Origin: a virus
Direction: 5' to 3' (one strand)
Virus record (IMG/VR): IMGVR_UViG_3300009182_000039
Location: 24,912-88,911 of that record
DNA length: 64,000 bases
Shown here: positions 1,781 to 51,969 of the stretch, piece by piece
Layout: every line of letters begins with the position of its first letter
Position numbering within the stretch: position 1 is the stretch's first letter
Notes under the pieces: generated by a model
Databases searched by the model: none
Seen by the model: the letters and a program-made list of their open reading frames with translations, nothing else
What the model was told of the DNA's origin: nothing
Position numbers and translations under genes: made by a program

Positions 1781-1784
1781 CTGC

Positions 1785-2849
1785 ATGCGAATCATCGACT
1801 GCGACAGTCATTTTTTAACTTGTGATATTTACAAAAATATTGAAGAACAATATCAACAGTTTCTTCCTAGATATGTTTTTGACTCACACAATCGTGTAAT
1901 CGATATACAATTTGATCAAGACCCTTGTGCCTTCGAGGACCCTACTAACAAATTTAATAATTATTGTGACGAAGCTGGAATTAACAATATTGATATAAGA
2001 TTAAACGATTTTAAAAAATTAAAAATAGATTTACAACTACTTGCTCCGCAAGAAAGAGCAATGCGATTTAATTACTCTGTAGAAAAAAATCTTGCGGCAG
2101 CAATGGCTCATAGTTATAATATAGAAATTAAAAAAATTGTTGATCAATATCCTGATAAATTTTTTGCTGTAGCTTTAGTGCCTTTACAAGATATAGAGCT
2201 TGCTCTTAAAGAAATAAAATGGATTATTTCTAACAATTTTAAAGCCATCTATATAGATTGTGTTTCATATAACCCAGCACAATTTGCCGGATGTCCAATA
2301 TCAAATCAAGAAAGAATAGATGAAATTTTTGCTATATGCGAAGAAAAAGAATTAATAATATATCAGCATCATTTTATGCATAAAATTACATCCAATGGCA
2401 ACAATACTATTAATGATGTATTAAACGGAAACCCAATTAGCAGAGTTAGAATATCTATCTACGATTGGATAACAAATGGTACTTTTGATAGGTTTCCTAA
2501 ACTTCGGGTAATATTCAGCGAAACTGCTGAAAAATTTATAAAACCTATATTTGAAAATTTAAAAAGTGCGTATAACGAAACTAAACTAATCTGTAAAGAA
2601 GATCCAATAGTATACTTTAAAAAAAACATATTCATTACTATAGAAGTAGAAAATAAAGACAATGTTTACTACTTAATAAACCAATTTGGCAGCGACCGTT
2701 TACTATTTAATACTGATTATCCGCACGTTGACCCAGCAGGGTCAAATAAATGGAACGATGTCGACGATTTATATAAATTAGAATTATCGCAAAAAGATTT
2801 AGAAAATATCGCATTTCGCAATGCTGAAAAGCTATTTAAACTAATATAA
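1785..2849 (+). CDS. Amidohydrolase-2 family metal-dependent hydrolase/decarboxylase
   Basis: This is a 354-residue TIM-barrel protein of the amidohydrolase-2 group, which includes aminocarboxymuconate- and resorcylate-type decarboxylases. The N-terminal metal motif reads DCDSH (residues 5-9), an expanded D-x-H. A histidine pair lies in YQHHFMH near residue 195, FSETAEKF near 244, and the catalytic Asp region is NTDYPHVDP near 308. It starts 4 nt after the TctC-like gene, so receptor and enzyme are co-transcribed, suggesting uptake and breakdown of an organic acid. The substrate is not predictable. Its stop codon overlaps a perfect TATAAATA box serving the next gene. Confidence 0.8.
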   Translation: MRIIDCDSHFLTCDIYKNIEEQYQQFLPRYVFDSHNRVIDIQFDQDPCAFEDPTNKFNNYCDEAGINNIDIRLNDFKKLKIDLQLLAPQERAMRFNYSVEKNLAAAMAHSYNIEIKKIVDQYPDKFFAVALVPLQDIELALKEIKWIISNNFKAIYIDCVSYNPAQFAGCPISNQERIDEIFAICEEKELIIYQHHFMHKITSNGNNTINDVLNGNPISRVRISIYDWITNGTFDRFPKLRVIFSETAEKFIKPIFENLKSAYNETKLICKEDPIVYFKKNIFITIEVENKDNVYYLINQFGSDRLLFNTDYPHVDPAGSNKWNDVDDLYKLELSQKDLENIAFRNAEKLFKLI

Positions 2850-2852
2850 ATA
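2845..2852 (+). promoter_or_regulatory. T4-type late promoter box TATAAATA
   Basis: Exact TATAAATA overlapping the stop codon of the amidohydrolase, 43 nt before the next start. A second near-match, GATAAATA, lies at 2867-2874. Either could drive the 101-residue gene at 2896, which also has a good Shine-Dalgarno sequence (AAGGAG, 2880-2885). Confidence 0.55.
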
Positions 2853-2895
2853 ATAACCGCTTCTTCGATAAATAGATTATAAGGAGCAGCACAAT

Positions 2896-3201
2896 ATGCT
2901 ACTAACATTCACATTAACAACAACTAAACCAGACGGTGTATTATGGTTTCCCGATTTTTCTGAAGAGAATCGGCAGATTGTTACTCGTATTAATACCTGG
3001 ACTAGTTTGCAACCAGGATTTATTAGACAAACTACCGTAGATATAGATGTAAATACCAGAGTTATGACTTTTGAATTTGATTCTGTAGAAAATTATGCTA
3101 ATTGGTTTTCATTAAGAAATCAACTACCGGAGCAAAGTATTCGATTTGCGTATATTAGAGCTAATGGCATGACCGTTACAACAAACGAAACTTTATCATA
3201 A
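2896..3201 (+). CDS. Small protein of unknown function (101 aa)
   Basis: Not recognised. The protein has alternating beta strands and helices and a size consistent with a small ferredoxin-like or ABM-type alpha/beta fold, but no motif proves it. The start is well supported by AAGGAG ten bases upstream. It follows the amidohydrolase in the same direction and may share its transcript or use the late-type boxes just upstream. No signal peptide or membrane segment is seen. Confidence 0.65.
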   Translation: MLLTFTLTTTKPDGVLWFPDFSEENRQIVTRINTWTSLQPGFIRQTTVDIDVNTRVMTFEFDSVENYANWFSLRNQLPEQSIRFAYIRANGMTVTTNETLS

Positions 3202-3224
3202 ATTAACCTAGTTCTTTTAATTTT

Positions 3225-3242
3225 TAGTATAGCACTATACTA
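3225..3242. repeat. Perfect inverted repeat between 2896-gene and PP-loop gene
   Basis: TAGTATAG and CTATACTA flank a CA dinucleotide, giving an 8-bp stem. No T-run follows, so it is a poor intrinsic terminator. The outer words CCTAGT (3207-3212) and ACTAGG (3239-3244) give a competing pairing. It could be an operator or an mRNA-end hairpin. The 108-nt gap contains nothing else that I recognise. Confidence 0.5.
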
Positions 3243-3309
3243 GGATATATACTTGTCTCAAAGATGAATAACTTCAAAATTTTTTGAGCAACTACACTAG
3301 GGTACTAAT

Positions 3310-24528: not shown

Positions 24529-24830
24529 TTAATATTTGGTTCCGTTTTTTTAACTACTATACTGACATCGGTGGGATGACACGGAATACCAGTTTTGGCA
24601 GGGTACAATCTTTTTACTATCGATGTATCGAGCACAACTATGTTATTATCAACTACTCTTATGTGTGTAGGAGGATTAACATATACTTCTCTAGTAATGT
24701 CTATATAATTACCTGGCAAATCCTCTTGGCTATAAAAAAGTGGCTGGCCTTGATCATCATAATACAGCCTATATAGAATAGGTTTTGGTTCTGCGGGTGT
24801 TAATGCCGCCCAAAATTCTTGTTCATTCAT
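24513..24830 (-). CDS. Small protein of unknown function (105 aa)
   Basis: Not recognised. Beta-rich, with a tyrosine- and proline-containing N-terminal half (ILYRLYYDDQGQPLFYS). No membrane segment. It overlaps its neighbours by 16 and 8 nt in the leftward operon, which supports its reality. Confidence 0.65.
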   Translation of the reverse strand: MNEQEFWAALTPAEPKPILYRLYYDDQGQPLFYSQEDLPGNYIDITREVYVNPPTHIRVVDNNIVVLDTSIVKRLYPAKTGIPCHPTDVSIVVKKTEPNIKWSLR

Positions 24831-25110
24831 CGTGTAAGCCGTGATGTGGTCGGTCGATATCTTGGAATAAGCGTTTTTCCTGTGCTGTTAGTTTATCTTT
24901 TCCTTTGGCCGTTTCGTTATGCCGAGGATTAGAGCACATAGGACAATGCGGGATGCCGCAATCCATAGCATGATGTTTAGCCAAGCGATGCGGTTCCTCG
25001 ATTGGTTTAGTAAGCCCATGAGACTTAGCAATTCTTAATTGTTTTTTAATTGCGGTCCAGGCTTTGTGTAAACGCTTACTATGTTTAATCTTATCTTCAT
25101 CTTTACTCAT
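24823..25110 (-). CDS. Small His/Cys-rich protein (95 aa), possible zinc binder
   Basis: Not recognised as a family. It is highly basic and helical in the first half. The central segment HHAMDCGIPHCPMCSNPRH has Cys and His spaced as a possible zinc site, and more His residues follow near the C-terminus. It overlaps genes on both sides by 8 nt. It could be a nucleic-acid-binding or adaptor protein. Confidence 0.65.
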   Translation of the reverse strand: MSKDEDKIKHSKRLHKAWTAIKKQLRIAKSHGLTKPIEEPHRLAKHHAMDCGIPHCPMCSNPRHNETAKGKDKLTAQEKRLFQDIDRPHHGLHDE

Positions 25111-30077: not shown

Positions 30078-33000
30078 TTAATTTAGACCCCTTAAAAATA
30101 GCGCCGCAGGGTTATTGGTTTGCTGTAGCGGAACCCCATCGGATGCTGTCCCAACTCCTGGATTATACCAACTGACTCCGCGACGAACTATGATAGTAAC
30201 TTCAACCCCATCTGCTGGCGGAGTAGCAAAAGATACAATTATCGGAGTTAAGTTTGTTACTCCATACCCGCTAGTTTGTAACGCTCCGCCAAGATATACC
30301 TCTACAGTTTCTATATTACTACCCATACCTACGTCATAATTTCCATCACCTTCTGGATATGAATAATTTGTACTGTCATAAGGAATAGATCCAGTCCAAT
30401 CATTAGCATTATTAACAGTAATATCTGTAGTAAAGTTAGTAGTTGTGCCGTTGCCTAAGAAAGAATTAGTTTCAATATAATTTTGGAACTGTTCCGGCAT
30501 TAAATTGCCTCGGCCCATATTGTATACATAAGCACCAACGGCATGAGAATCTGCTCCGGTACCAGCTGTGCCACGCAATAAGCTACTAATAGTATTAGCT
30601 TCTATATCAATTTCACGATACATAATGCGCTCGCCGTTGATACTTACTACACCCCATATATTGGCAGCAAACTCAGGAATACTCAATGCGCCAGCGTTGA
30701 CTACATGAATGATATCATCGGTTGCTGTGACTGCTTCTGTCACTGTTGTAGTAGTAGAAGGGGTCATGCGATATGTAGCTTGCACACCGCGCATATCTTG
30801 GAATATTCTAAATTCCATAGATTCTGGAACTACTGAATTTGTAACGTTTGTTATTATAATAACATCAGTTGGACCAATTACTCCATTATTTAATGTTAAT
30901 GTGTTATCAACAATAGTATAATCTGTATAAGCTGTTAAGACTCTTCCATTTCTGGATACCCACGGCCGAGATATATCTGTATATGATTGATATAGTGTAA
31001 AGTCATTAAAATAAATTGTATCGCCTACTGTGGCATCAAATAATCCAGGATCAGCCGACGGAGCACCAGGAGGATTATCATATAAAGTTGAGTCATATTT
31101 TTCATAAATTGAAATACCTTGACTTACTGGCCCAACAAATATTTGTTGGGATAATCGTTGTTCGCGAGTATCATTAAATGTAGTAACTGAAATTATATCG
31201 CCTGCGTGTGGGACAATACCTGTTCCAGAAATAATTGTTAATGTATATGCCATTGGATCAATAATATATTGAGCCGTTACATCAACCGCAACATATACTT
31301 CAGCACCGTCAGCTGGAGCAGTATCTAACACTATATCAGGATAAGCGAATATATATGTAGCTGGCTCTTGTAGTATGCCATCGACATAAACACTTAAATT
31401 ATCTTTAATAATAGTAGTTGGATCAACTCCTAATCTAGTAGGTAACGCAAATGCATCATTTGTGCCATCACCTACACTAGGTTTTCCTGCACTGCCACTA
31501 GCAGTAATGCCACCAATAGTAACTATAGCAGTTACTGGATTTGTATATTCTAAACTAATTGTTGGATCTAAATCATACTCTAGTTGTCCCGTTGTAGGAA
31601 CTGTTATAGTTTGAGTTACTGGTATACTCCAGCTATAATTTGTAGTAACGCTATCAATTGTAGTAGGGCTAATGGCTACTAAACTAATAAAATCATCCGA
31701 AGCATAAGTAGAATCAAAAGTTAACGTTGTAGTATTAAAGGCTGTGCCGGCTTCGTATGAATATTCTGTAGTTGGTACGCAACTTCCATTTACGAAAATA
31801 ACAAATTCTTGTATCAAACTATACTGTACTGGTACTGTTAAAGAATTTCCAACATCGGCACCGTTGTATATATTTTTGTAAAGCTGATTCCCGCCACCAA
31901 CTTGATATACATAAATGCCTAATTGATCGCCGTTAGCAACCAACGACGAGGAATTTAAAATAGTAAATGTTTGATTTACCCAATTGACTGTATAATCAGT
32001 ACCTTCATTTAAATTATAACCTTGTGTTACATCTGTAATTTCTAAATCTGCTGGGAACGATTGTAATCCATCAAAACTTATAGTTGGATTTACACTATCG
32101 TATATAACTTGTAGTGTTCCTTGTGCAAACCCGTGTCCTAATCCTTGCCAGTCGGCCCCAGGAGTAGTATAAACTCGAAGATCTAAAGTGTCAAACTCGA
32201 TACCAGGAACTAATTCTTCTGGTGCGTGGCTTTCGTAGGCATCAACATACTTACCGCCATCAATATTAATGTCGGATGGCCGAGTACCCAAGTATGGATC
32301 AAGATAACTACTTTGGAATATAGTATCAAGTATACCCAAATCGTATGTAGGTTGGCCGTTTGGATCTAATGAAATGTTATCGAATGGGTTAATATCAAAA
32401 TTACCGCGGTCAAAACCAGTGTCTTGGTCAAATCTTACAGCAGCAACTTGTACACCTGGGTAATCAATGCCGTCAATCAGTAATGGCAACGACAATCCAG
32501 GAGTATTAACTGTACTTACATAAAAACCCATTGTGCGATCAGCACCACTTAATACACCAGCATCAACTTGTAACCATTCTGCTGGATCAAACACAGAATT
32601 TGTTACTGATCCACTAGTGCTATCGGCGGCCCAGACCAGATTATCGTAGCGAACTTGTGTTCCATTTTCATATGTTATGTTGGCTTCCCAGTCGATAATA
32701 GTCGATTGATATTCGCAACGGTCATATTTAATTGTAGTATTGAAAGAACGAACTAACGAGTTGTTCATAATAGTTACTGCTTGAGCAATTTGTCCTACAA
32801 ATGTCAATTCCGCTGTTCCATTAACTTCAGTAGCTGTGCCAATTGGTTCTACATTACCTAAAATGCCGGCAGTATCAACTACATAAATGTTATTCCATGA
32901 TGTAATAATATTTTCATTCTCTACAACCGATATTCCTGCAGCCCACGGTGTAGGATCGCCAGGTAATCCACCGCCACTAATGGTAATAATTGCATCCGTA

Positions 33001-36000
33001 CTATAACCTGATCCTGGATTTACAACAATAATTTCAATTACTTGTCCAGCAGGATTAATAATAGCTGTCATAGTAGCTTGTGTGATACAAGTTCCTGTTA
33101 CAGTAACTACTGGTACCGAGGTATAGCCAGAACCACTATTAACAATACTAACAGCTTGAATGCTTAATAAATAATTTTCAAACCATTGACTATACAAACT
33201 TGGCAATTGCCATATTTGAGCATTGGGAGCAGTATTACTAGCATTTGAATGATAAGCAGTAATAGCTTCTGTGTATGGGGTTAGTATCGGACTTACAAAT
33301 TGCGATACTGGCAGCGATGAATTCCAATAAGCTGGCAAATCATAATCGGTAATATCGCCTAAGAAGTCATCTTCTCCAGTATAAATTAAATTAAATTGGC
33401 GCACTTGTACGTGATACGGTTTAATTTCTTGAAAATAATTTATAACAAAGTCTTGGTTATCGGCAAGATATGTTTGATAGGGTTTTAATGAACGAATTTC
33501 GTGATTTACATCAACATAACTAGTTTTAACTAACCAAGAGGGATCAGTAAATTCACTATAAACATAATTAAAGATTAAAATTAAACTGCTATTTCTTTCA
33601 AATAATAAATCGCCAATATAAATTTCTTCATTCAACGCACGAAGAATGTAACGTGTTTCAGTTTGCGGAGTTTCATCAAAATATAATGAATCAAATACTT
33701 GAGCATCAAATCCAAAATTTCCAACAGTATAGTTCCATAATTCTTCTTTAAATGCAATGGTGCCATCTTCTAACCCAACACGAGTCCAATCCTTAACTAA
33801 GTCAATGCCTGTTCTTAAATATATTTCCCATTTGCCGGCACCATTACTTATAACTCGCACAGAAGAACCCACTGGTACTGTTTCATAACTTAATGTTGCC
33901 AATTGAGAATAATTTTGAACAGCCGCTACTGGTGAAAGTGTAGAATTATAACCTGGTAAGTACCAATTAATATAATACCAATATTCGGGTGTGTCGTAAC
34001 TTTGGACGCGAATTAACGCTAATGTTTGTCCTGTTTGAACTTCATAAATTGTCCAGCGGCCAAATTGACTACTGTCCGACAATACAAGATATTTGTAGCC
34101 TACTGGAACTATACTGAGATTTTGATAGCCTAAAATTTCTAAATTGGCTACTTTATAATCCCATGCGCCACTATTTGCTTGTGGAATTGATTCAGCGGCA
34201 TTTAATAAATTAAAACTTCGAGTTTCAGAAATTGGGTATTGTGCTAATATTGTATTTGCCCGGCCTAAATAATTTTCCAAAGCTGTAAATCTATCAGTCA
34301 CCATACTTTGACGGGGTCGGAATTGCACTCCATAACGCATACCAAAACTTAAATTAGGATCCGGCACAGCACTACCTGCAGTGTCAACCCCGCATAAACT
34401 ATCTAAAAATTTACGATATAGGTTTGAATTTAAGAACGATTTAGCTACACCATCTTTAATAATTTGATATTCTTGATGGATTACTGCGTCGTTAAGTTTA
34501 CGGTCAAACCCAATACTTAAAATAGTATTTGTTGCGTTTAATAAACTTTGTGCGTTGTAAATAGCAATGGTACTAGCATTAAGTCCAGCAATATATGGTA
34601 ATCCACTGCTACGAGGATCGGTAATATAGCTAGCCACACCACTAGGACTTAATGTTTTTCCGGCACCAGTAGAAATAGTTGTAATTCCTCTTACCCAGAA
34701 ATAATAAAATGTAGTAAAAATATTATTTGTGCCTAGCTGCGAAGTTACACAATAACTTGTGGTACTAAGTGGTGTACCTTGTCCAGTATAGCCAGCTGGT
34801 GGATTAGAACTTTCTACCCATTGATAAATGTCCACTCTACTTCCTGGGAATATTGATCCCCAACGGCGACTAGCATATACTATATCATCTTGATTTGGAT
34901 CAATAAATCTTACAGTATCAGTATCCCACCACATTTGTCCAATACGTTCACGACCCCAAGATTGACCATTATTATGGACTGATCCTTGATTATATTGAGC
35001 TGGATCTACGGCACCAATATAATTAATGTTGCTTCGAGCTACTCCTAATATTTTACCTTGTAGTGGATCAAAGAAATCAAAATATGTTTGTGCTTGCCCA
35101 GTAACCGTAGTGTTAACTCCGGCCGCTTGTTCTCCGTTATAAGAAAATACTCCGTCGATAGCGTAGACATCAACTACAGGTTGTTGTACTCTTATCGGAG
35201 CCCAAGCTGGCGTATCATTTAAATTTTTAAATATTGTAACATAACCCGAGTTTGTTGTTTCATAAATCGTACCGCCAGTTGCCCCGACCATTAATTTGCC
35301 ACTTGTATAATTTACTGCGGTTCCAAAAAAGTTACCAGATTGTACTTTGCTATTATAAATTTGTTGCCCAAACGCAAATTGTCCAGGATTTTTAATACTA
35401 CTTTGACTACTTGGGAAATAATCAAAAGTATATGCTACTCCACCATTGTTAACTGGATTAAAGAATGTTGTGCTATGTTCATCAAAATATGTTTGGCCGG
35501 CATCAAAAGTTGTTGGTTCATAAACGTCGCCGTTCGGAGACCCGACAATTAGATTAACTGCGCTAGTGTCAATGCTTAAACTTGCTCCAAATTGTCCATT
35601 GAATGCTGGCAGCGGGCTTAATATTTGTTGAGTAAACACAAGAGTATTAAATCCTAGTTGGTTGAAAACAGAGGCTACTGTCCCGGGCAGTACTGTAATT
35701 AAATTATACGGTGTACCGGCATCAATATTTTTTACAGATAATGTTAATCTTCCTGATACAACAGTTATAATTCTCCCAGTTGTCGGGGCATAAACAAAAT
35801 AAATGTTTTCTGTGACAGGATCATAAGAATAATCAGTACCGGCGATTTGTAATATGTTGTCTAGGTATACTACAGTTGTGTAAGAACTAGCATCAGAATA
35901 TAAAGTTCCAATATTAAAAATTTTAGTGATGCCATCTGCTACAAATTCTAAATCAGAAGTTAATGTGGCTAAAACATTTGGTATATTAGCAGAGTTAATT

Positions 36001-39000
36001 GCAGCAACAAACCCGGCTATTGTATTATTCAAGCCAGTAGGAACCGATACCTGTGTATCATTAATACGCAATGTTCCATTAGCAGTGAGCGTTGGATTGG
36101 CAATTGTAGAGGTTGTGATTCCGTAAACTCTTGATTGATTAATTTGATAATCTACCGATCCAGATAAATCAGTATAGGTACTATCAAATGGAGCTCCGAC
36201 GTATAAACTGCAATTTAATGGACATGAATCAACAGCAAATCCATATTGTGCGTTTTCGTTAACTGTATTACTAGTTAAAGTTTGAATTTGACTTATTTGA
36301 TTTGTTTCAATTTCAATTATATCACCGTAGTTGAATATTATATTAGAAAATACAATATCATTACCATCTACAGTAAATTGTCCGCTTGGCGATTGCTCAA
36401 TAGTTAATAAGAAAATTCCATTTACACTTACAGCGACTGGTCCAGTAACATTTCCAGGAACAATATATGTTGTTTGTGATGGAGTTGATACTACATAACG
36501 TAGAACACTTCTATCAAACACATATACAGTTCCAGTTTCTGTTAAACTATTAGTATCGGTTTTTGGGGCGCCGATCATTATTTGTCTGCCATCGGTAGTG
36601 GCTGCTATACTAGCACCAAAATTATCTCCAGACATCGAATCAGGAGTAGTAATACTTAAAACATATTGCCAATAAGTTGAAGTAGACGCAATAATTTTTG
36701 CGCCGGCGGGTGGTATTGTTATAAATGTTAAAACTGTAGTATTTGAATTGAATGTATAATCTAAATAAGGGCGTTGTACTACATCATTTACTCTAATAAC
36801 GACATTGTTAATAGATGTAGCATTATACAAATATTGATTTAATGTAAAATTATTTGTATTACTAATTCCAGAGCCAGAATAAGAAAATCCAATTATTTGA
36901 CCTAGTATATTAATACCTGTTACAGTTATAACTAAATTATTAGCAGGAGTTGCCCCGCCTATTTGCGAACCGTTGATTGTAAGTGTATTGCCCACCGCAT
37001 AATTTTGGCCGCCAAATTCTAATGTGGGATAATATACTCCTCTTATAACTTCAACTGTGAAGAGTGCCCCGGTTCCTACACCAGTTGCTGTATTTTGATG
37101 AATAGTATAATAAAAATACTCATCTAATTGTTTAGCTAGGTTACGAGCTATTACTAATGTTTGGCCGTTTACGGGAGGATTAGTGAATATTAAATTATTT
37201 TGATTTAATGTATAATCTACCCCATAAGTTAATCTAGTTTTGTTAAGAGTAACTATTAACTGATTAGGATAGGTATAGTCAATCTGTATTGCGTTAGAAT
37301 ATTCATATATTGATGCGCTATCGGCTGTGGTATATTCAATAGCTTGTGTTTCTACCATTACTTTTTCGTAAGCATATACAGTATTAGCGCCAGGAGCGCC
37401 TATGTACATCCAGTTTTCATCAAGACTAACTATACCCGATGTGCCAAAGCCAATAGGGTCAAAATTTTGGTCAGGTGGTACTAATAACTGTGATATAGTA
37501 ATAGTATTTGTGCCGGCTTCTCTATAAATTACTGCAGCATATCCCATACCAGACAGACTAGTATTAGCACCGACTACTGCCCAATTTGATTTACCAAACG
37601 ATATCATATTACCAAAGTTACTAGTATCACTAACGCCTAAACTTATAGTTCTACTAAATTGATAATCACTCAATGGATCTTTAAAATATGCTAGTACTGT
37701 TCCTACCCCGTTCGCGCCGTTTGGTGCTCCAACTAACGCAAAAAGATTGTTTTGTGTTTGTGCTACACTTGCGCCAAACTGATTGTTTGCTGATAACCCA
37801 GGAGTAATGGTTGAACTTGTAATAAACGGAGCTTGTTTTTGGACCGTCTCCCAGTGGCCGTTGCCATCGTTATCTACCCAAGCAATGGCACCGGGCACTA
37901 AACTGTTTACATATGGCAATGTTGAAATATCGCTTGCTTGACTTACTCTAGCACTTTGCAAATCAAGTACTAATCCTGTGCCAGTAACCGTTGTTATATT
38001 TGTATTTGTAAAACTATACGAAATAGTAATAGTAGTCGGCGAGGGGCTTGATAAAACACGATAGACACCATTAACAGCATCATTAAAATATTTAATAATA
38101 ATTAAAGCGCCTGCTGACAAATTGTGTGCGGCACTAAACTGAACAATACTTGTACCATTTAAATTATCAGTAAGTTGAGTCATTTGACCGTTTACAGCCG
38201 TACAGCGATATACTCCCCAATTATAAGGATTAATTTTAGCAATCCAGATGTAAGTACCAATACCTATACTATTAATCTTAGCATCAATTGCAGTAGGATC
38301 GTCAAGACTGAATACAGTAACGTCAACATCATCTAAACATACATAACCAGCAGAAGGTAATGCAGTTGGAATATTACTGCCTTCGTAGGTAGTAGGTAAA
38401 ATTTCAGTAGATGTAATGTTGTAACTTTCTCTCCATAAATTTTTTAAATAAATTTGTTGGTTAGCTTGACTTGTTTCTCCAGGATTAATAATTTGTATTG
38501 TTGATGGGTTATACGACAATAACGATGCGTCCAATTGAATATCAAAATAACTCTTATTAGCTTGAGCGCCGTATGTTCCTGCTAAGACTCCCCAGTTTTC
38601 ATAGACATTATAGGCTCCACTTTCTTTGCCGCCTAATAGTGTAGAGTTAAATATTTCTGCTGCTTGTAATGTCCCTTTAGTTCCAATAAATTGTTGATAA
38701 AGCTGTACCTGGGTTACTCCGTTTAGATTCATCTCGCTCATATATTGTCGAGGACGGAATCCAATTAGTCCAAATGCAAACAAATCATTATCAGAAGTTA
38801 AATTTGCTTGGTAAACATCATAAGATGTAGTTAATTGATCAGCTTTATTAGCTAGGTTAGGTAATAATCCCTTGTCAATTGCTTGAAAATCGCTCTTGAC
38901 CCAGTCGTTATAATTAAATGTTTCTTGCGGTTCACTAATTGTAATAGCTTGCCAATATGTATTTTTATATAATACAATTTCACCTTTAGTGTATTTGGTA

Positions 39001-42000
39001 TAGGCTTTCCATTGCTCAACATTGTTTAAATTAAGAATAAATCCTTGGGCGTTAAGTTGACCGTCCCATTCTGTTGTAGTGGAGGCTATTAGACTTAATC
39101 GAATTTGTCGTGCGGCTGTAACCGGATCATAAATTAAATCGTTAAACTGTGTTGTGTTATCTAGCACAATCATATCTTCATAGTTTGTAAACTTTAATGT
39201 AAGATAATTAATTGTTTGATTGTTGGTGGTAGTAATTGAAAATTCATTTCCGTTTCGATATACAATTAAATTTTTAACATCCAATACCGATTGGTTCTGG
39301 TCTAATAACATATTTTCTGGAGTTATACTAGCGACAGTATCAACAATACTAATTGGTTGTGCGGCTGTAATAGTTGTGGCGCAAGGATTTAAATTAATTA
39401 TAGTGCCGTCGTCCCAGCCCTGAGTAGCAAAATTTAAAAATTCTGCTGCCATTTGTTTCCAATTTAAAGTGTATCCATTGTAAACATTATTAAAAATTAG
39501 TCCTTGACTTGATAACCAAGCCCCGTAACTTAATAAAAAGTCGCATACACTAGCAGTAGTTGTGAATACATAACCATAAGGTATTTGTCTTGTTTTATCA
39601 GTGTACTGCGAAGGAATTTGTACTGTGGCATTGCCTGCTGTAACAGTTTCATATAACCCAACTGGGCTACTTACTAAAATTTCAAAATAAGGTTGGACAT
39701 TGCTATATCCAAATACAGAATATCCTACTCCGCCAGAACTTAATTGTTGTACTTGCACAATTACAGAACTATATGTAATTTGATTAAACGGTTGATTTTT
39801 ATAAAATAGTAAATTATAACTTGTAGACGGAATTACTAATCCATTATTAGTAGAATTAGGTCCGGCTCGATCAGTAGATATTTGTACATACACTGGATCA
39901 GAAAATGATGCCATACGATAACACAATCTAACATCTAAATTAGCCAAGTCGGCAGTTAATTCCGAGGTGCTATTAACTCCAGATTGCTGATTGTAATCTA
40001 CAATCCAGTTAATATAAGATGCTTTACTTACACCATTACCGTATACTTGAACGCCCGACGCATCTAAACGATAGCGGTTGTTTAGTAAATATTGGCCTAA
40101 TGTAGTGTTATATCTGTATAAATCTCTGTCGGCATATAATGAGAAAAATTGTGCGGGTTTAGTTAATACCAGCATACGCATAATAGCAAATGGGTAAGAA
40201 CTACTATTCCACCAAGATGCTTGAACTGGGCCACCGTCACCGGCTACCCAAGATTGTTGGAATCCATACGGGTCATTTCGACCCATTATACATTCATCTG
40301 GCGGCAATAATTCGCCTTCTGAGCCAGCTGGAATAATTTTGCTTAATCCTGGACGAATATATTCAGGAAGAATATATGGACCAGCAGGATCTCCAACAAT
40401 ACCAGCTTCTAAATCGTCCCATAAAACAGTATTACCGGAAGTATATGGAGACGGGCCGTAACGCAACACCCACCAGGCTGGTTCTTCCGTAAACCCAACC
40501 ATTTCCCACGGTGTAGAATTAGGGGTTTCTGTGTCATAAAAATAACGATAGATTCCGCGCCAGTTACCTTGGAGGAAAGAATCTTGATTAATACGATTGG
40601 CAGCATTAATATAATTCCATGTAAAGGGATTGTTTGCTACATAATTTTGTTGTGTATAATCTACTCGATTCTGCCCAACCCAGCTTAAAAAATCTTCGTT
40701 CATTATCTCATTGACTTCTGAGTAAGTGTAAGGCGTTTTACGGAAAAAGCCTGGCAATAATGCTGTAGTTTGTGCTGGGTAAAATAATGGATCAACTTCA
40801 TCAGTAGACAACGGAATTGGATTGTCGTCTACTTTAATATTATCATATATACGTTTTTCAAATTCAAGTAATACTTGGTCGCGAACGTCGCCGAAGGCAA
40901 TAGTAATACTACCATCGTGCCCTTGAATTACTGGGGTTGGTTCAGAATAAGTATCGTCGATAAAAATACTCGGAGTATATTTTGGATACAGACCCATCTT
41001 ACTCGGTGTATTAGGACACCAGCTAGCTAATGTTGTAGGATATTCGGTAATAGTGACAACATCATTAACATTTAATGGAATTAAAATTCTTAATTTAAGT
41101 GCATCTACAGACACAACATACTGACTTCCACGAACTAATAATACATTGTTTACATAAACTAACAATCCAAGATAATTTGATGATGTAAAATCATATGATT
41201 GTGTTGTATTAAAAACTGAAGTTGTAATAGGATTTACTACCGTTGTAGTTGATGTATAATTAGTGCCTACCGGTAGCATGTCTGACCAATAAAATGGATC
41301 AATGTTTGTTAAACTCTGGGTAATATTGTTTATACTTAAATCAAGTATTTGTGCTACTGTTTCTGACCCGTTAAGATCTAATTGTGTAACCGCAGTTAAT
41401 AATTTATTTTTATATTTAATATATTCCCGACTATTATATTGTAGTGCAGCAAAAATATTATAATTTGGTGCTCGTAAAAAATATCCTGCTAATGTTAAGG
41501 GCGAAGATTGTTGTAATATCAATTGGCCATAGGGAATAATATTCCCTAAATCGCGAGTGTTATTTCTTCCGTTTATAGGACCTTGAAGCTTAGTTAAATT
41601 TTCACAAATTGTAGTATAATGAGTACGAACTGTACCTAAACTAAATTGCGGAGAATTTCCGTTAAACGGATTATTTTCAAGGTTAATTGGAACTTCGTAA
41701 AAACCTTGTGCGCTGATTTGTTCGCTATAAACTAATACTTCAATAACGTCACCGATAACATATCCTGTACCATTTAATGTAATCGTCGATGTGTTTGTAG
41801 TAGAATTAACCGAAAGTGTATATGTCGACGGAGTTTGGTATACATTATTAATAAAAACTTGAGCTGGAGGAACATCCAACACAGTTTCAATTAATACATC
41901 AAATTGTAATGGTGTGCCTGAATATGTAAATTGAAATTGTTGACGAGCTAACGATGGTATAGCCGCTGTTTGCCAACCAATCTCTCGGTTAAATGTGATG

Positions 42001-44837
42001 CGATCACTATACTGACGCACAAATCCAGAACTAACTTCAACAGTTGTTCCTGTACCGCCTGTTGGTGTATAGATAAACGAATCGGTATATAAATTATTGT
42101 CAAATAATATATCGCCAATATTATCAATACTAAAAAATGCTAAAGGAAATCCTAATACTGAGTCAACGGGGTTATCTGGATTTTCCGAGTAGCTTAATAA
42201 CTTACACCCTGTAAAATTTGTACTTGGGTAATAAGTTTGGTCGCCAAAACTTATGCTATTAGAATCATATACATCAAACAACGGTGCTTGGTTAACAGCC
42301 GTTTTTTGTTGAGCACTAATCCATTCCTCGCCAGTATAATAAAAACTTTCTCCAGTTAAAGTATTACCGCTAATACAAACTGTAGTTTGATTGGCTAGTA
42401 CTGGATTATAACTTGTAGGAATTAAATCAATAATAGGTACAGTAGATGTTGCTGCATCTGTATCTATAAAATTAACTTCGTATACTTGATTACGCACATC
42501 CGGATTTTCGTCAGCAGCAAAAATAATTAAACTACCTTGAACTAGAGTATAACCATCAACTCCATAACCAGCTTGACCATTAACATTTAGTAGAGCATTT
42601 GTTTGCGTAAAATCAATAACATTAACCGCAGGGATACCTTGTGTGCCAAAATTAAATAATTTTGTGCCAGCACGGAATTCTAAAATAGGACGGTTTGCTC
42701 TTTGAGCATTAATATATGTAGGTTGGATGTCGTTGTATGTCGCAGCGGCGTTGATAACATCAACATGGAACCAGCGATTACTTCTGGTCCACGGATTCAA
42801 ATCAGGACTTGCTAAATTAATTGTTAAATAATCTGGTTTAATTGGCTCGCCATTAATTTTAGTTTCTAAAGCATAAGTTTCTGGCACTACTAAACTATTG
42901 GCATCTACTAAAACAATGCTCGAGCCCACCCCTTGAACATAATACGTGTTACCAATATAGGATGTTGGGTATACATTCCCTTGAAATATAATTTTAAGTC
43001 CGTTGGTAAATGTTACTCCGTTTGGACTTATGTAATTTGTTTGTCCTAATATTTCAGTGTCTATGTTAATATAAGCATTAACACTAATTGAATTAATAGT
43101 ACCGCTACTAACATAAGCGGCCGTCTCGGGACTAGCATAAGTTACAGTTGTCGTAGTACAATCAGTTACTACATAAGTTCCATTATATACAGGTGGATTA
43201 ATTTCTGAAACAATAATAGAACTTCCAACAGAATACGGGGCGGATAATTGTGTAGCAAAACTTAATGTTACAGAGCTTCCTGTACTAGCAACACCACTTA
43301 CCGATAACGGCGGAACAGCATCGCCGGTAGTTTCAGTGATAAATTTAATTTGTCCAAATATTGTTGGATCCTCGCTATCCTGATAATAAACATAGGGCAA
43401 TGCCGCTGTTAATAATGGCATTTGTATATAGTTGCCTGACGAATTTTTATACCATTGTGTATTAACAAACTCTGTACCGAATGAAATGGAAAATTGTGTT
43501 TGATCGGCTATTGTTAAAATACTATTAAGTTGAATATATCCATCAACATATTGAATTTGCCATAAACTAGCTTGTACCAATGGTTCAAAATCATTAGTAA
43601 ATACCAATGTACGAGAATTAAGATTTGTGATACCATCGATACCGTCAGGATTTTCAGACAAAAAGGTGTCTACTGCTACACCGTTTAACTGGTCAAATGT
43701 AAAAGTTGAACAAATTAAATCAACGATGCCAATTCCTGTAGTTGGATAATTAATAAATGGTAAAGTATAATAAAAATCTTGTGCTGTAGAACTAGGTACA
43801 TTAAATCCTACAGTTCCTAGATCGATTCCGTTATTGGTAACACCCAGCACATTACGATCACTTATATTAGGAGACCACGGTAATCTGCCATCGATTCCAG
43901 GTTGCGTCTGAATCCAAAATTGCGGACCCGACCCACTGGTAGCATCAATAACATTTAGTTGGCCGCGAAGATTGTAATGTATATCATTGCAGTAATATAA
44001 TACATCTGGCGCATCTTGCGGAACTGTAAATGTAACTAATCCTTCAGTGCCACCATTGTTAGTTACGCCTTCGCTCCATAAATTAGTTGTACCAAACGAT
44101 GCTTCTGTTTTGATAAAAAAAGCGTATGGTGCGTTTTGTACTAAGTTCCAGGTATATGTATTACCACGAACCAATGTTAATGTAGGATTTGCTATTTGAT
44201 TAATTGCCCAACTACTTGTTCCATTATTAATAACACGATATTCAACCGAAGTAGCAGTATTTTGTGCTACAACAAAATTGTAACTACCATTACGCACTAA
44301 CGTCAATGTTGGGTTTGCGCCTTCATAACCACTAAAAGTATAAGCGCCGTTAGTACGAGTAACTGTAAATGTTTGTTCTGTTGATATAGCAGTAGGCGCC
44401 ACTGTAACTAAATCTGGACCGTCAGGTAACCAGTAATACTGGGCGTAATTATTAAACTTGTCAAAATCTACAAATGGATCCCACGAATAATATTCACTTT
44501 CAAATAATCTATCAGCTTGATCAACAATACCACCTTGTGTGCTTAACGCATCAAGAATTCCAGGATAAGTGATAACATCATCAATTTTTAAATTTATTGG
44601 ATTAAGAGAAACAACGCCTGGCTCGAGTTGATAATCATCACGAACTTTAGTAGGTTCAATTACATAATTGTCATTGGCATTAACTCCAGGCCCAACTTTA
44701 CGACCAATATAACCCTGTGTTTGTTTATAAGCTGGTTCCTGAATTAACTGGTCAAGAGTAGCATTTAGAAATTGCGTGTTTACCGGAGTTTGAAATATTT
44801 CTGGTAGAAAATCAACTGAACGAATTTTTGTGGCCAT
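30078..44837 (-). CDS. Giant tail/baseplate protein (4,919 aa) with FG-GAP-like propeller
   Basis: A single uninterrupted 14.8-kb frame after the gp6-like gene, where T4 has gp7; a gp7-type wedge role is suggested by position only. The N-terminus (FLPEIFQTPVNTQFL ... QLEPGVV, residues 10-75) is a pattern seen in structural proteins of marine T4-like phages. A cupredoxin-like segment follows (RGNTYTWNL ... DAPDVLYYCND, about 200-290). Between about 2350 and 3210 there are seven FG-GAP-like repeats (for example NFGASIA plus IMIGAPKTD), as in an integrin-type seven-bladed propeller. A short beta module (V-x-V-[ND]-G/N-x-x-Q ... Y ... F-x-x-x-P-x-x-G) recurs at least nine times, some copies between blades. 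Near 3800, IKPYHVQVRQFNLIYTG, and near 3900, paired GSGYTSVP-like repeats. It overlaps the gp6-like gene by one base (TAATG). Confidence 0.85.
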   Translation of the reverse strand: MATKIRSVDFLPEIFQTPVNTQFLNATLDQLIQEPAYKQTQGYIGRKVGPGVNANDNYVIEPTKVRDDYQLEPGVVSLNPINLKIDDVITYPGILDALSTQGGIVDQADRLFESEYYSWDPFVDFDKFNNYAQYYWLPDGPDLVTVAPTAISTEQTFTVTRTNGAYTFSGYEGANPTLTLVRNGSYNFVVAQNTATSVEYRVINNGTSSWAINQIANPTLTLVRGNTYTWNLVQNAPYAFFIKTEASFGTTNLWSEGVTNNGGTEGLVTFTVPQDAPDVLYYCNDIHYNLRGQLNVIDATSGSGPQFWIQTQPGIDGRLPWSPNISDRNVLGVTNNGIDLGTVGFNVPSSTAQDFYYTLPFINYPTTGIGIVDLICSTFTFDQLNGVAVDTFLSENPDGIDGITNLNSRTLVFTNDFEPLVQASLWQIQYVDGYIQLNSILTIADQTQFSISFGTEFVNTQWYKNSSGNYIQMPLLTAALPYVYYQDSEDPTIFGQIKFITETTGDAVPPLSVSGVASTGSSVTLSFATQLSAPYSVGSSIIVSEINPPVYNGTYVVTDCTTTTVTYASPETAAYVSSGTINSISVNAYINIDTEILGQTNYISPNGVTFTNGLKIIFQGNVYPTSYIGNTYYVQGVGSSIVLVDANSLVVPETYALETKINGEPIKPDYLTINLASPDLNPWTRSNRWFHVDVINAAATYNDIQPTYINAQRANRPILEFRAGTKLFNFGTQGIPAVNVIDFTQTNALLNVNGQAGYGVDGYTLVQGSLIIFAADENPDVRNQVYEVNFIDTDAATSTVPIIDLIPTSYNPVLANQTTVCISGNTLTGESFYYTGEEWISAQQKTAVNQAPLFDVYDSNSISFGDQTYYPSTNFTGCKLLSYSENPDNPVDSVLGFPLAFFSIDNIGDILFDNNLYTDSFIYTPTGGTGTTVEVSSGFVRQYSDRITFNREIGWQTAAIPSLARQQFQFTYSGTPLQFDVLIETVLDVPPAQVFINNVYQTPSTYTLSVNSTTNTSTITLNGTGYVIGDVIEVLVYSEQISAQGFYEVPINLENNPFNGNSPQFSLGTVRTHYTTICENLTKLQGPINGRNNTRDLGNIIPYGQLILQQSSPLTLAGYFLRAPNYNIFAALQYNSREYIKYKNKLLTAVTQLDLNGSETVAQILDLSINNITQSLTNIDPFYWSDMLPVGTNYTSTTTVVNPITTSVFNTTQSYDFTSSNYLGLLVYVNNVLLVRGSQYVVSVDALKLRILIPLNVNDVVTITEYPTTLASWCPNTPSKMGLYPKYTPSIFIDDTYSEPTPVIQGHDGSITIAFGDVRDQVLLEFEKRIYDNIKVDDNPIPLSTDEVDPLFYPAQTTALLPGFFRKTPYTYSEVNEIMNEDFLSWVGQNRVDYTQQNYVANNPFTWNYINAANRINQDSFLQGNWRGIYRYFYDTETPNSTPWEMVGFTEEPAWWVLRYGPSPYTSGNTVLWDDLEAGIVGDPAGPYILPEYIRPGLSKIIPAGSEGELLPPDECIMGRNDPYGFQQSWVAGDGGPVQASWWNSSSYPFAIMRMLVLTKPAQFFSLYADRDLYRYNTTLGQYLLNNRYRLDASGVQVYGNGVSKASYINWIVDYNQQSGVNSTSELTADLANLDVRLCYRMASFSDPVYVQISTDRAGPNSTNNGLVIPSTSYNLLFYKNQPFNQITYSSVIVQVQQLSSGGVGYSVFGYSNVQPYFEILVSSPVGLYETVTAGNATVQIPSQYTDKTRQIPYGYVFTTTASVCDFLLSYGAWLSSQGLIFNNVYNGYTLNWKQMAAEFLNFATQGWDDGTIINLNPCATTITAAQPISIVDTVASITPENMLLDQNQSVLDVKNLIVYRNGNEFSITTTNNQTINYLTLKFTNYEDMIVLDNTTQFNDLIYDPVTAARQIRLSLIASTTTEWDGQLNAQGFILNLNNVEQWKAYTKYTKGEIVLYKNTYWQAITISEPQETFNYNDWVKSDFQAIDKGLLPNLANKADQLTTSYDVYQANLTSDNDLFAFGLIGFRPRQYMSEMNLNGVTQVQLYQQFIGTKGTLQAAEIFNSTLLGGKESGAYNVYENWGVLAGTYGAQANKSYFDIQLDASLLSYNPSTIQIINPGETSQANQQIYLKNLWRESYNITSTEILPTTYEGSNIPTALPSAGYVCLDDVDVTVFSLDDPTAIDAKINSIGIGTYIWIAKINPYNWGVYRCTAVNGQMTQLTDNLNGTSIVQFSAAHNLSAGALIIIKYFNDAVNGVYRVLSSPSPTTITISYSFTNTNITTVTGTGLVLDLQSARVSQASDISTLPYVNSLVPGAIAWVDNDGNGHWETVQKQAPFITSSTITPGLSANNQFGASVAQTQNNLFALVGAPNGANGVGTVLAYFKDPLSDYQFSRTISLGVSDTSNFGNMISFGKSNWAVVGANTSLSGMGYAAVIYREAGTNTITISQLLVPPDQNFDPIGFGTSGIVSLDENWMYIGAPGANTVYAYEKVMVETQAIEYTTADSASIYEYSNAIQIDYTYPNQLIVTLNKTRLTYGVDYTLNQNNLIFTNPPVNGQTLVIARNLAKQLDEYFYYTIHQNTATGVGTGALFTVEVIRGVYYPTLEFGGQNYAVGNTLTINGSQIGGATPANNLVITVTGINILGQIIGFSYSGSGISNTNNFTLNQYLYNATSINNVVIRVNDVVQRPYLDYTFNSNTTVLTFITIPPAGAKIIASTSTYWQYVLSITTPDSMSGDNFGASIAATTDGRQIMIGAPKTDTNSLTETGTVYVFDRSVLRYVVSTPSQTTYIVPGNVTGPVAVSVNGIFLLTIEQSPSGQFTVDGNDIVFSNIIFNYGDIIEIETNQISQIQTLTSNTVNENAQYGFAVDSCPLNCSLYVGAPFDSTYTDLSGSVDYQINQSRVYGITTSTIANPTLTANGTLRINDTQVSVPTGLNNTIAGFVAAINSANIPNVLATLTSDLEFVADGITKIFNIGTLYSDASSYTTVVYLDNILQIAGTDYSYDPVTENIYFVYAPTTGRIITVVSGRLTLSVKNIDAGTPYNLITVLPGTVASVFNQLGFNTLVFTQQILSPLPAFNGQFGASLSIDTSAVNLIVGSPNGDVYEPTTFDAGQTYFDEHSTTFFNPVNNGGVAYTFDYFPSSQSSIKNPGQFAFGQQIYNSKVQSGNFFGTAVNYTSGKLMVGATGGTIYETTNSGYVTIFKNLNDTPAWAPIRVQQPVVDVYAIDGVFSYNGEQAAGVNTTVTGQAQTYFDFFDPLQGKILGVARSNINYIGAVDPAQYNQGSVHNNGQSWGRERIGQMWWDTDTVRFIDPNQDDIVYASRRWGSIFPGSRVDIYQWVESSNPPAGYTGQGTPLSTTSYCVTSQLGTNNIFTTFYYFWVRGITTISTGAGKTLSPSGVASYITDPRSSGLPYIAGLNASTIAIYNAQSLLNATNTILSIGFDRKLNDAVIHQEYQIIKDGVAKSFLNSNLYRKFLDSLCGVDTAGSAVPDPNLSFGMRYGVQFRPRQSMVTDRFTALENYLGRANTILAQYPISETRSFNLLNAAESIPQANSGAWDYKVANLEILGYQNLSIVPVGYKYLVLSDSSQFGRWTIYEVQTGQTLALIRVQSYDTPEYWYYINWYLPGYNSTLSPVAAVQNYSQLATLSYETVPVGSSVRVISNGAGKWEIYLRTGIDLVKDWTRVGLEDGTIAFKEELWNYTVGNFGFDAQVFDSLYFDETPQTETRYILRALNEEIYIGDLLFERNSSLILIFNYVYSEFTDPSWLVKTSYVDVNHEIRSLKPYQTYLADNQDFVINYFQEIKPYHVQVRQFNLIYTGEDDFLGDITDYDLPAYWNSSLPVSQFVSPILTPYTEAITAYHSNASNTAPNAQIWQLPSLYSQWFENYLLSIQAVSIVNSGSGYTSVPVVTVTGTCITQATMTAIINPAGQVIEIIVVNPGSGYSTDAIITISGGGLPGDPTPWAAGISVVENENIITSWNNIYVVDTAGILGNVEPIGTATEVNGTAELTFVGQIAQAVTIMNNSLVRSFNTTIKYDRCEYQSTIIDWEANITYENGTQVRYDNLVWAADSTSGSVTNSVFDPAEWLQVDAGVLSGADRTMGFYVSTVNTPGLSLPLLIDGIDYPGVQVAAVRFDQDTGFDRGNFDINPFDNISLDPNGQPTYDLGILDTIFQSSYLDPYLGTRPSDINIDGGKYVDAYESHAPEELVPGIEFDTLDLRVYTTPGADWQGLGHGFAQGTLQVIYDSVNPTISFDGLQSFPADLEITDVTQGYNLNEGTDYTVNWVNQTFTILNSSSLVANGDQLGIYVYQVGGGNQLYKNIYNGADVGNSLTVPVQYSLIQEFVIFVNGSCVPTTEYSYEAGTAFNTTTLTFDSTYASDDFISLVAISPTTIDSVTTNYSWSIPVTQTITVPTTGQLEYDLDPTISLEYTNPVTAIVTIGGITASGSAGKPSVGDGTNDAFALPTRLGVDPTTIIKDNLSVYVDGILQEPATYIFAYPDIVLDTAPADGAEVYVAVDVTAQYIIDPMAYTLTIISGTGIVPHAGDIISVTTFNDTREQRLSQQIFVGPVSQGISIYEKYDSTLYDNPPGAPSADPGLFDATVGDTIYFNDFTLYQSYTDISRPWVSRNGRVLTAYTDYTIVDNTLTLNNGVIGPTDVIIITNVTNSVVPESMEFRIFQDMRGVQATYRMTPSTTTTVTEAVTATDDIIHVVNAGALSIPEFAANIWGVVSINGERIMYREIDIEANTISSLLRGTAGTGADSHAVGAYVYNMGRGNLMPEQFQNYIETNSFLGNGTTTNFTTDITVNNANDWTGSIPYDSTNYSYPEGDGNYDVGMGSNIETVEVYLGGALQTSGYGVTNLTPIIVSFATPPADGVEVTIIVRRGVSWYNPGVGTASDGVPLQQTNNPAALFLRGLN

Positions 44838-48318: not shown

Positions 48319-48693
48319 TTAAACGTAACTTGCAGAACGTTGTTGCTCATTAAAAAATATAGATAGAATTTGAGCTGACGTGGTTGCTACTGTTTGCAAT
48401 TCTAATTCTAATAATATGCCGTTTTGTTGGGGGTACATATTGACATTATTAAGATATAGCCTAGGATCTGCGCCAATAACTCGTTGGACTTCTTGATATA
48501 CAGCCGTTTGGAGTTCTGGGGTTTGATTTTCAAACAAATAAGCCCATAAAATAGTGCCGTATCCTGGGCGGCCGACTACTTCGCCCTGCCTAATGTTAAA
48601 GGCGTTTAGTAAATCTTGTTTTATCAATTCATAATCAACAAGTGTAAATGTTTTATTTTGATTGATTGTATTAAATCCGATGAAGGTTGCCAT
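48319..48693 (-). CDS. Baseplate wedge protein gp25-like
   Basis: This 124-residue protein matches the gp25/GpW family of baseplate wedge proteins: helical NTF-like start, LVDYELIKQDLLNAFNIRQGEVVGRPGYG and then the conserved ILWAYLFE, with the IxADPRL region after. In T4 gp25 joins the wedge to the sheath. The late-type box AATAAATA ends 6 nt before its ATG and there is no Shine-Dalgarno sequence, so it may be translated from a leaderless message. Confidence 0.9.
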   Translation of the reverse strand: MATFIGFNTINQNKTFTLVDYELIKQDLLNAFNIRQGEVVGRPGYGTILWAYLFENQTPELQTAVYQEVQRVIGADPRLYLNNVNMYPQQNGILLELELQTVATTSAQILSIFFNEQQRSASYV

Positions 48694-50454: not shown

Positions 50455-51969
50455 TTAATTTGTTTTAGTAATAGTAGTACCAGCTGGAATACTAGGTGCT
50501 CCAGGCGGAATTGTATTTGGGCCGTCTGCTAAATTAACATCATTTTTTACTCCTCGGTTATGATACGGCCAAGGTTCGTGCGTAGGAGCTCGAGTAACAA
50601 TACTTTTTAATTTGCTTGAGCCTACATTCCAGCCACTGCTAGCTTTAAATGTGCTATCCGGCATAGTATATTCAGTTAGTGGCGTGGGGACTTCAGCAGT
50701 AGGAGCAGATCCAGGATTTAACTCTATAGTAGACCCTTGTAGTGTCAATTGACCAGCTGAATTCCATGATCCACCAACACTATCTAAAACTAATTGGCCA
50801 TTACTTTTAACATTAATTTTTGCTTGACTAAACAATGTTAGCGCAGCTTTGCTTGAACAAGTAAATGTTTCTTCGGCTTCAAATGTAATTCCTTTTTTAC
50901 TTTTTATGTTAATATTTTCACCAGCAAAAATATTAAAATCTTTGTCTGCATGTAAATTTATAGTACCTTGTGTTCTTAAATTAATAGAATTTGTTGTATA
51001 AACATCCAATGTACCTTCTTGACCAAACTCCAGCCATACCTGTCCATTAGCATGAGCAATATAAAAACAGTTTCCATCATCTGACATTGTGATCTGATGA
51101 CCTTTAGCTGATCGAATTCGTACTAACGAATTTTTTCCACCAATATCTCCATCGTCCATTACAAAAGAATGGCCGCCTTTTCTGCCAACAACATTAACTG
51201 CTTCCGGCGGAACCGATCCAGATGCTACTTGTTGTTGAATAGTCGAGTCTTTTAACCCGCCTTGATATACCGGGCGACCAGGTGTACTAAAACCAAAAGT
51301 ATTACTAGGACTTTCCCGTTGACTAGATGAGCTTATTGATCCGCGAATTGGGTCATCAACTGTGCCTGCTTGAAACAATACGCCAGCTACATAACTATGA
51401 ACTGGTTTTTTCTGATTAAAAAATTGTGGATTTTCGTTGATGGCTGTGTTCTGTTCTGCATTATTAATCTCAGTCACAGGAAGTTTAGGGCTTTTTCCAA
51501 AGTATGTTGATTGATTTTCGTTTTGTGTAGCTGCTTCAGGAGCCGCCCCAATGGCCGGTACCATATGATTTACACCTTGCGGTGGCACAACACCTACATA
51601 AAAACCTTGATTGGGATCACCTGCGACAAAGAAGCACAATACTTGGACTCCGATGTCAGGTGGACTAAAACTCATGCCATAACTTTGTTGATTATTAGTG
51701 GATCCGTAAGTACCTACGCCAGCCGATGTACTTGTTTTTGGTGTCGCTCCACCAAAAGGTGGTATGTAACTAACTGTGCGCCACAATGTTTTATTTGTTT
51801 TATCCCCACCACCAAACTGTTCAATATAAACTTGTACACGACCACTACGAGTTGGGTCAACGTTGTTTACTATTTCACCAATGAAGGGACCAAAATCCGT
51901 AGGAGTGCCTCCGCGGTCAAATTTATACGGAGCTGATCTTCCTGTTGTTCTTTGTACGTTAAGTGCCAT
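50455..51969 (-). CDS. Baseplate hub/needle protein gp5-like, no lysozyme domain
   Basis: This 504-residue protein has an OB-fold-like N-terminus (GEIVNNVDPTRSGRVQVYIEQFGG) as in gp5/VgrG. A central linker follows (FGFSTPGRPV), then a C-terminal repetitive beta-helix (GTINLHADKDFNIFAGENIN, about 300-430), the needle. T4 gp5 carries a lysozyme domain between these parts; here no lysozyme motif is seen. The downstream start overlaps the upstream stop by one base (TAATG). Confidence 0.85.
   Translation of the reverse strand: MALNVQRTTGRSAPYKFDRGGTPTDFGPFIGEIVNNVDPTRSGRVQVYIEQFGGGDKTNKTLWRTVSYIPPFGGATPKTSTSAGVGTYGSTNNQQSYGMSFSPPDIGVQVLCFFVAGDPNQGFYVGVVPPQGVNHMVPAIGAAPEAATQNENQSTYFGKSPKLPVTEINNAEQNTAINENPQFFNQKKPVHSYVAGVLFQAGTVDDPIRGSISSSSQRESPSNTFGFSTPGRPVYQGGLKDSTIQQQVASGSVPPEAVNVVGRKGGHSFVMDDGDIGGKNSLVRIRSAKGHQITMSDDGNCFYIAHANGQVWLEFGQEGTLDVYTTNSINLRTQGTINLHADKDFNIFAGENINIKSKKGITFEAEETFTCSSKAALTLFSQAKINVKSNGQLVLDSVGGSWNSAGQLTLQGSTIELNPGSAPTAEVPTPLTEYTMPDSTFKASSGWNVGSSKLKSIVTRAPTHEPWPYHNRGVKNDVNLADGPNTIPPGAPSIPAGTTITKTN

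Follow-up and report, generated by a model that had tools for sequence, protein, structure and literature searches.

A predicted seven-bladed integrin-alpha-type FG-GAP propeller within a giant, probable baseplate protein of a freshwater jumbo phage lineage

We analysed a window of 64,000 nucleotides from an IMG/VR virus record of 88.9 kb. One ORF in it, of 4,919 amino acids, almost certainly encodes a protein into which a complete seven-bladed FG-GAP beta-propeller of the integrin-alpha type has been inserted, according to profile matches and predicted structures. The ORF starts with ATG and is read on the minus strand (44837..30078). Relatives of 4,184-5,356 amino acids are encoded on other contigs, and the ORF is therefore not an assembly artefact; as those contigs reach 347 kb, the window record most probably covers part of a jumbo phage genome. 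The profile of PHROG_10938, a virion structural protein family, scored 946.8 bits against the giant protein and covers its core on both sides of the propeller. We regard it as a tail protein of a jumbo phage from fresh water, and probably as part of the baseplate.

Seven repeats of the form FG...G[A/S][P/N/T] lie within residues 2300-3259, starting at residues 2354, 2408, 2464, 2740, 2865, 3083 and 3171, which bears out a sequence-only reading that had counted seven FG-GAP-like repeats at about residues 2350-3210 and had proposed a search with FG-GAP profiles. Six of the seven matched a relaxed regular expression that had no match in the rest of the giant protein; the one outside it is blade 6, with GSP in place of GAP. 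When the propeller region was shuffled 2,000 times, the mean number of motif matches was 0.04 and the maximum was one. Pfam FG-GAP_2 (PF14312) matched with an E-value of 5.4e-11 in the whole giant protein (43 bits; the cut-off is 23) and of 1.2e-16 in the propeller segment by itself, and it was found in 26/26 aligned family members. In the window protein, FG-GAP_2 by itself passes for just two stretches (two of the seven blades), the other blades having diverged. Profile comparison of blade with blade gave 60-97% probability for most pairs, whereas blade with insert gave about 10% or lower; the profile of blade 2 matched only blade 1.

Structure prediction, also proposed in that reading, gave a closed ring in two AlphaFold models. 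The first, an AlphaFold2 model of the window protein from an alignment of 26 sequences, had a pLDDT of 84 and a pTM of 0.83. The second, of a relative (L247) with its flanks, about 30% identical to the window protein and without the insert in blade 3, had a pLDDT of 81. The best 50 solved entries listed by VIA-align 2 for the window-protein model were all integrin alpha chains (Z 34-38, rmsd 2.5-2.9 A, about 343-371 residues aligned), the alignment spanning model residues 37-916; the best 50 listed for the L247 model were likewise all integrin alpha, at Z 37-39. Over both models, the best Z against integrin-alpha heads was 38-39, with an rmsd of 2.5-3.0 A over about 345-370 residues. In both predicted models, seven four-stranded blades form the ring, each beginning with strand A, which holds the FG motif, followed by B, which has GAP at its end, C and D, and a strand N-terminal to blade 1 completes blade 7. 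Because of this strand order and the integrin alignment, the models indicate that the strand is strand D of blade 7, closing the ring as in integrin alpha. The giant protein is rich in small beta modules, the propeller region included, and an array of such modules (immunoglobulin-like or similar) with no closed propeller might be imagined in its place, but two independent models and the fold searches lead to a full integrin-type ring with N-terminal closure and make an open array extremely improbable. FG-GAP_2, the two models and the fold searches thus lend strong support to the proposal that a phage tail protein holds an integrin-alpha-type propeller, and the outcome that the reading had named as refuting it, HMMs without a hit and a fold other than a closed propeller, did not come about. 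The first PDB row returned by Foldseek for the first model, a cyanophage A4 tail chain (9k09_U), had a TM-score of 0.11, and we did not count it as a relative.

Three of the blades are enlarged by inserts (Table 1). The sequence-only reading had put extra modules between blades 3-4, 4-5 and 5-6; in the model they instead interrupt blades 3, 4 and 5 themselves, each time after strand C and before strand D. For blade 3 the comparison with L247 agrees: there strand C runs directly into strand D, so that the insert sits in the C-D connection. The inserts of blades 4 and 5 would likewise lie in C-D connections, judging by the strand order of the model. In the blade-3 insert a GG-type module is flanked by two beta modules that are related to each other; L247, L236 and L241 lack the entire insert, and some relatives lack its middle module, which 151 of 196 aligned sequences have. 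The middle module of the blade-5 insert (about residues 2963-3027) is present in 134 and missing in 62 of the same number of aligned sequences. The inserts of blades 3 and 5 share related modules (97% probability), which also bear a weak likeness to DUF2460 and to modules of T7 tail fibres. Blades 3-5 carry phage-tail modules in their C-D connections.

Table 1. Positions in the window and in the giant protein of the propeller, its parts and the neighbouring baseplate genes.
Feature	Residues	Window position	Strand	Basis or remark
Giant ORF, virion structural protein (PHROG_10938), 4,919 aa		30078..44837	-	directly downstream of gp6-like wedge gene
Right strand of core hairpin, WAPIRV	3212-3217	35187..35204	-	MIJ3 alignment of joined flanks
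Seven-bladed FG-GAP beta-propeller with inserts (predicted)	2339-3206	35220..37823	-	FG-GAP_2, model, motif scan
Blade 7, strands A-C	3173-3204	35226..35321	-	model, blade profiles
Blade 6, with long conserved B-C loop	3086-3160	35358..35582	-	model, profiles, conservation
Blade 5 with insert	2868-3072	35622..36236	-	model, blade profiles
Insert in blade-5 C-D connection	2899-3065	35643..36143	-	alignment, blade profiles
Blade 4 with insert	2743-2854	36276..36611	-	Pfam, model, blade profiles
Insert in blade-4 C-D connection	2778-2844	36306..36506	-	model, comparison with relatives
Blade 3 with insert	2467-2729	36651..37439	-	model, blade profiles, motif scan
Insert in blade-3 C-D connection	2494-2721	36675..37358	-	alignment, profiles, comparison with L247
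Blade 2	2412-2452	37482..37604	-	model, blade profiles, motif scan
Blade 1	2357-2398	37644..37769	-	model, blade profiles, motif scan
N-terminal strand, probable strand D of blade 7	2339-2344	37806..37823	-	inferred from integrin alignment
Left strand of interrupted core hairpin, WETVQK	2329-2334	37836..37853	-	MIJ3 alignment of joined flanks
gp6-like baseplate wedge subunit, 1,142 aa		44837..48265	-	phrog_10646, phrog_219
gp25-like baseplate wedge subunit		48319..48693	-	phrog_43
Baseplate hub subunit, gp5-like		50455..51969	-	phrog_13211

The integrin alpha head and the phage propeller have in common the seven FG-GAP blades, the strand order and the N-terminal strand closure (Z 34-39 over about 345-370 residues), although the identity in the structural alignments is just 16-23%. 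In blades 4-7 of integrins, the loop joining strand A to strand B binds calcium through a D-x-D/N-x-D-G motif. The A-B loops of the phage propeller (TQNNL, GKSN, SLDEN, TTDGR, CPLNC, DTSAV and SG) contain no such motif, and hence we regard it as integrin-like in fold and not as an integrin. An integrin alpha subunit also pairs with a beta subunit and has thigh and calf domains and a membrane anchor, features that one would not look for in a virion protein of a phage. In both systems the remaining protein attaches at the lower face of the propeller. The I domain of integrins follows blade 2 and precedes blade 3, whereas the phage inserts are in the C-D connections of blades 3-5, and the phage propeller is nested within its protein, unlike that of integrin alpha. 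The CPLNC of blade 5 (window 36210-36224, residues 2872-2876) has cysteines that are nearly invariant in 26 aligned sequences, and could be a disulfide or metal site.

The site at which the propeller entered the protein can be seen by comparison with the core family, which is common to RaK2-, PA5oct- and Atu_ph07-like jumbo phages. PHROG_10938 members (RaK2 ORF070, MIJ3_00389, 121Q_582 and Atu_ph07 gp180) are 23-38% identical to the flanks and have the same gene order. A blastp comparison with the giant proteins of MIJ3, RaK2, SCTP-2, Phosso and Vibrio phage 2.275 found the flanks conserved up to about residues 2120-2250 and again from about 3160-3250, and no match in these five for the segment between. 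With the window flanks joined, MIJ3 aligned as one HSP with no gap at the junction (VWID...DWAVAVVSGSTITNIRSRQ), and SCTP-2 likewise aligned in one piece; the propeller therefore replaces the turn of a core beta-hairpin, which in MIJ3 and SCTP-2 is uninterrupted, an empty site. An FG-GAP_2 search of the RaK2, MIJ3, SCTP-2 and Vibrio 2.275 genomes gave no match. Unlike the window protein, the giants of these four phages are without a propeller, and that of Phosso has another long insert. This Phosso insert, 1.47 kaa without FG-GAP at the propeller site (residues about 1723-3195 of the gp7-position giant), leads us to think that the site may be an insertion hot spot. In Phosso, a Sinorhizobium phage (PV764938), 42 FG-GAP_2 matches were seen elsewhere, at 48338-68978 and at 92-94.5 kb of the record; most fall in two giant genes side by side (3,162 and 3,692 amino acids), and shorter ORFs near 92-94 kb hold others; these are possibly strings of propellers outside the gp7-position gene.

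Within the sampled clade the propeller is nearly universal. Its profile matched in 221 of 232 ORFs holding both flanks, a count that takes in overlapping loci of the same contigs and comes from searches that favour close relatives. The 11 others are MIJ3, RaK2, SCTP-2, Phosso, Vibrio 2.275 and six IMG/VR loci; two of the six have FG-GAP motifs at the same place (one with a Pfam E-value of 9.5e-7), and the remaining four have inserts of similar length. The homologues amount to 113 distinct sequences at 85%, and in all of them the propeller occupies one fixed place. A pattern-based scan of bacterial and archaeal genomes gave no propeller relative, and thus no host or source genome was found. Searching 50,697 phage records by tblastn with the propeller gave no match at 1e-5 and, at relaxed E, weak matches of insert modules only, and a sequence search of solved structures returned nothing convincing for propeller or core.

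Where the protein sits in the virion is suggested by its genes and by an orthologue. The gene order in the window, all on the minus strand, is hub, gp25, gp6 and then the giant protein gene. Core family genes elsewhere also follow gp25 and gp6 genes, directly after the gp6-like wedge gene in MIJ3, RaK2, Phosso, Atu_ph07 and 121Q; in Vibrio 2.275 the gene is in the same neighbourhood, and in SCTP-2 its neighbours are without functional annotation. The 121Q orthologue has a calculated mass of 381.87 kDa. In phAPEC6, which is 98.9% identical to 121Q and of the same species, mass spectrometry of the virion identified gp245 (381.88 kDa), whose gene neighbours that of the wedge protein gp244 (PMC7247149). 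Because of the gene order and the mass spectrometry of this core orthologue, we consider a baseplate location highly probable, in line with the earlier suggestion of a baseplate or tail position. The same reading had spoken of a T4-like wedge protein, and here position and sequence part company: the gene directly follows gene 6 in the tail cluster, but T4 gp7 and S-SSM7 gp7 compared with the core profiles gave no match, so that membership of gp7 is argued from gene order only. In the cyanophage S-SSM7, gp7 genes of about 3,000 amino acids also come after gp25-gp6; two are annotated as gp7, with one gene between them. The first of these encodes a GG-type module like that of the blade-3 insert (giant residues 2605-2679, 37% identity), its sole resemblance.

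Phage propellers as such are already known. The receptor-binding protein of phage phi11 carries a baseplate propeller that was proposed as a receptor-binding domain and glycan recognition site, but it is trimeric, has five blades instead of the seven seen here, and belongs to a siphophage (PMC4901313). A propeller in PRD1 P2 is mentioned in the same source, as is phiKZ gp131C (PDB 4GBF), a seven-bladed propeller at the periphery of a jumbo-phage baseplate with a proposed receptor-binding role (PMC4901313). The gp131C propeller is the C-terminal domain of another protein; 4GBF was not among the best 50 structural entries listed, which says nothing on relation. The T7 nozzle protein gp12 has a seven-bladed propeller and further domains at the tail tip, but it is a structural gate of a podovirus and is not described as FG-GAP (PMC6702177). 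Some uncultured phage proteins are already named FG-GAP repeat, and a 393-aa 'hemagglutinin' of Agrobacterium phage Atu_ph07 (BFVD A0A2L0UZX4) has a propeller-like fold (Foldseek E 3.3e-11, TM 0.65 on target). In the open-access literature we met no account of an FG-GAP propeller of the integrin type set within a protein at the baseplate wedge position, and nothing joining FG-GAP, phage and baseplate; papers with FG-GAP and phage or bacteriophage were, judging by their titles, not on phage tails. Heads of the integrin type are familiar above all from the adhesion of animal cells. A complete one in the hairpin turn of a probable phage baseplate protein, together with the empty site in relatives, is a clear instance of a contractile injection machine having captured a domain.

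As to what the propeller does, the account that best explains the whole, for which we see an even case, is an adhesive head built into a baseplate protein. The giant protein would be present in several copies in the wedge or at the baseplate rim, with the propeller standing on the core by its lower face, the side on which strand order and the integrin alignment place the three inserts and also the C7-D7 gap, its point of attachment. With the lower face so occupied, the upper face, formed by the D-A and B-C loops that make up the ligand face of integrins, would point outward and is probably free. Such a head could engage a widespread ligand of the host surface, probably a glycan, in a multivalent way, either ahead of baseplate attachment or in the course of it. 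The putative adhesive function itself we propose tentatively; receptor or glycan binding is plausible, and the propeller may help the virus to hold its host or to hold its fibres.

Sequence divergence bears on this proposal from more than one side. The propeller diverges faster than its flanks (mean identity 47%, against 58% and 63%), which counts for adhesion. However, its pairwise identities co-vary with those of the C-flank (r 0.83), and it changes at about the rate of a downstream ORF and of the giant protein's own C-terminal part. Its near-universal presence in the sampled clade and the lack of calcium motifs in its A-B loops also count against adhesion. A hypervariable tip, or frequent swapping among close relatives, is usual but not obligatory in phage receptor-binding proteins. 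No sign of domain swapping was seen among the propeller homologues, and no face-specific hypervariability was found in them, which makes the propeller unlike typical host-range tips. Taken together, the fixed location, the co-variation with the flank and the absence of a hypervariable face neither prove nor exclude receptor or glycan binding; they agree better with a docking platform, or with an adhesive head whose ligand is common, than with a host-range tip.

The pattern of conservation would be accounted for nearly as well by a structural or fibre-docking role as by receptor or glycan binding. The propeller could be a structural hub, a rigid docking platform for tail fibres or neighbouring wedge subunits that makes no contact with the host. 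Its fixed position in all sampled close relatives, the co-variation and the lack of a hypervariable face would agree with this, as would the conservation seen near blade 6 and the attachment hairpin, and the propellers of T7 gp12 give the strongest inter-subunit contacts (PMC6702177). Against it, RaK2, MIJ3 and Vibrio 2.275, which are relatives in the core, build their tails with no propeller, and the propeller diverges faster than the flanks; we hold this role possible, though somewhat doubtful. Many propellers are carbohydrate-active enzymes, and a CBM_5_12-like stretch with a sub-threshold score occurs elsewhere in the giant protein, but a glycosidase, depolymerase or other carbohydrate-active fold trimming the host surface is very unlikely here, as the fold matches non-enzymatic integrin heads and no Pfam enzyme family was matched.

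Returning to the adhesive head, we would add as an unlikely extension that a widespread freshwater jumbo-phage lineage captured an integrin-type head and made it permanent in the wedge, so that the wedge itself, and not the fibres alone, senses the host. If this were true, binding at the upper face could be passed via the hairpin to the core and help to trigger contraction. Residues about 2325-3225 form a defined, expressible fragment for adhesion tests in a large group of uncultured jumbo phages.

Two minor observations concern other parts of the window. A single tRNA was found in it, a tRNA-Ile (anticodon aat) at 24767-24840 on the plus strand. At window 43908-44345 (giant residues about 165-310), two similar NPTLTLVR stretches are followed by LYYCNDIHYNLRGQLNV; the region lies in a stretch that does not align to MIJ3 and is reminiscent of a cupredoxin-like domain.
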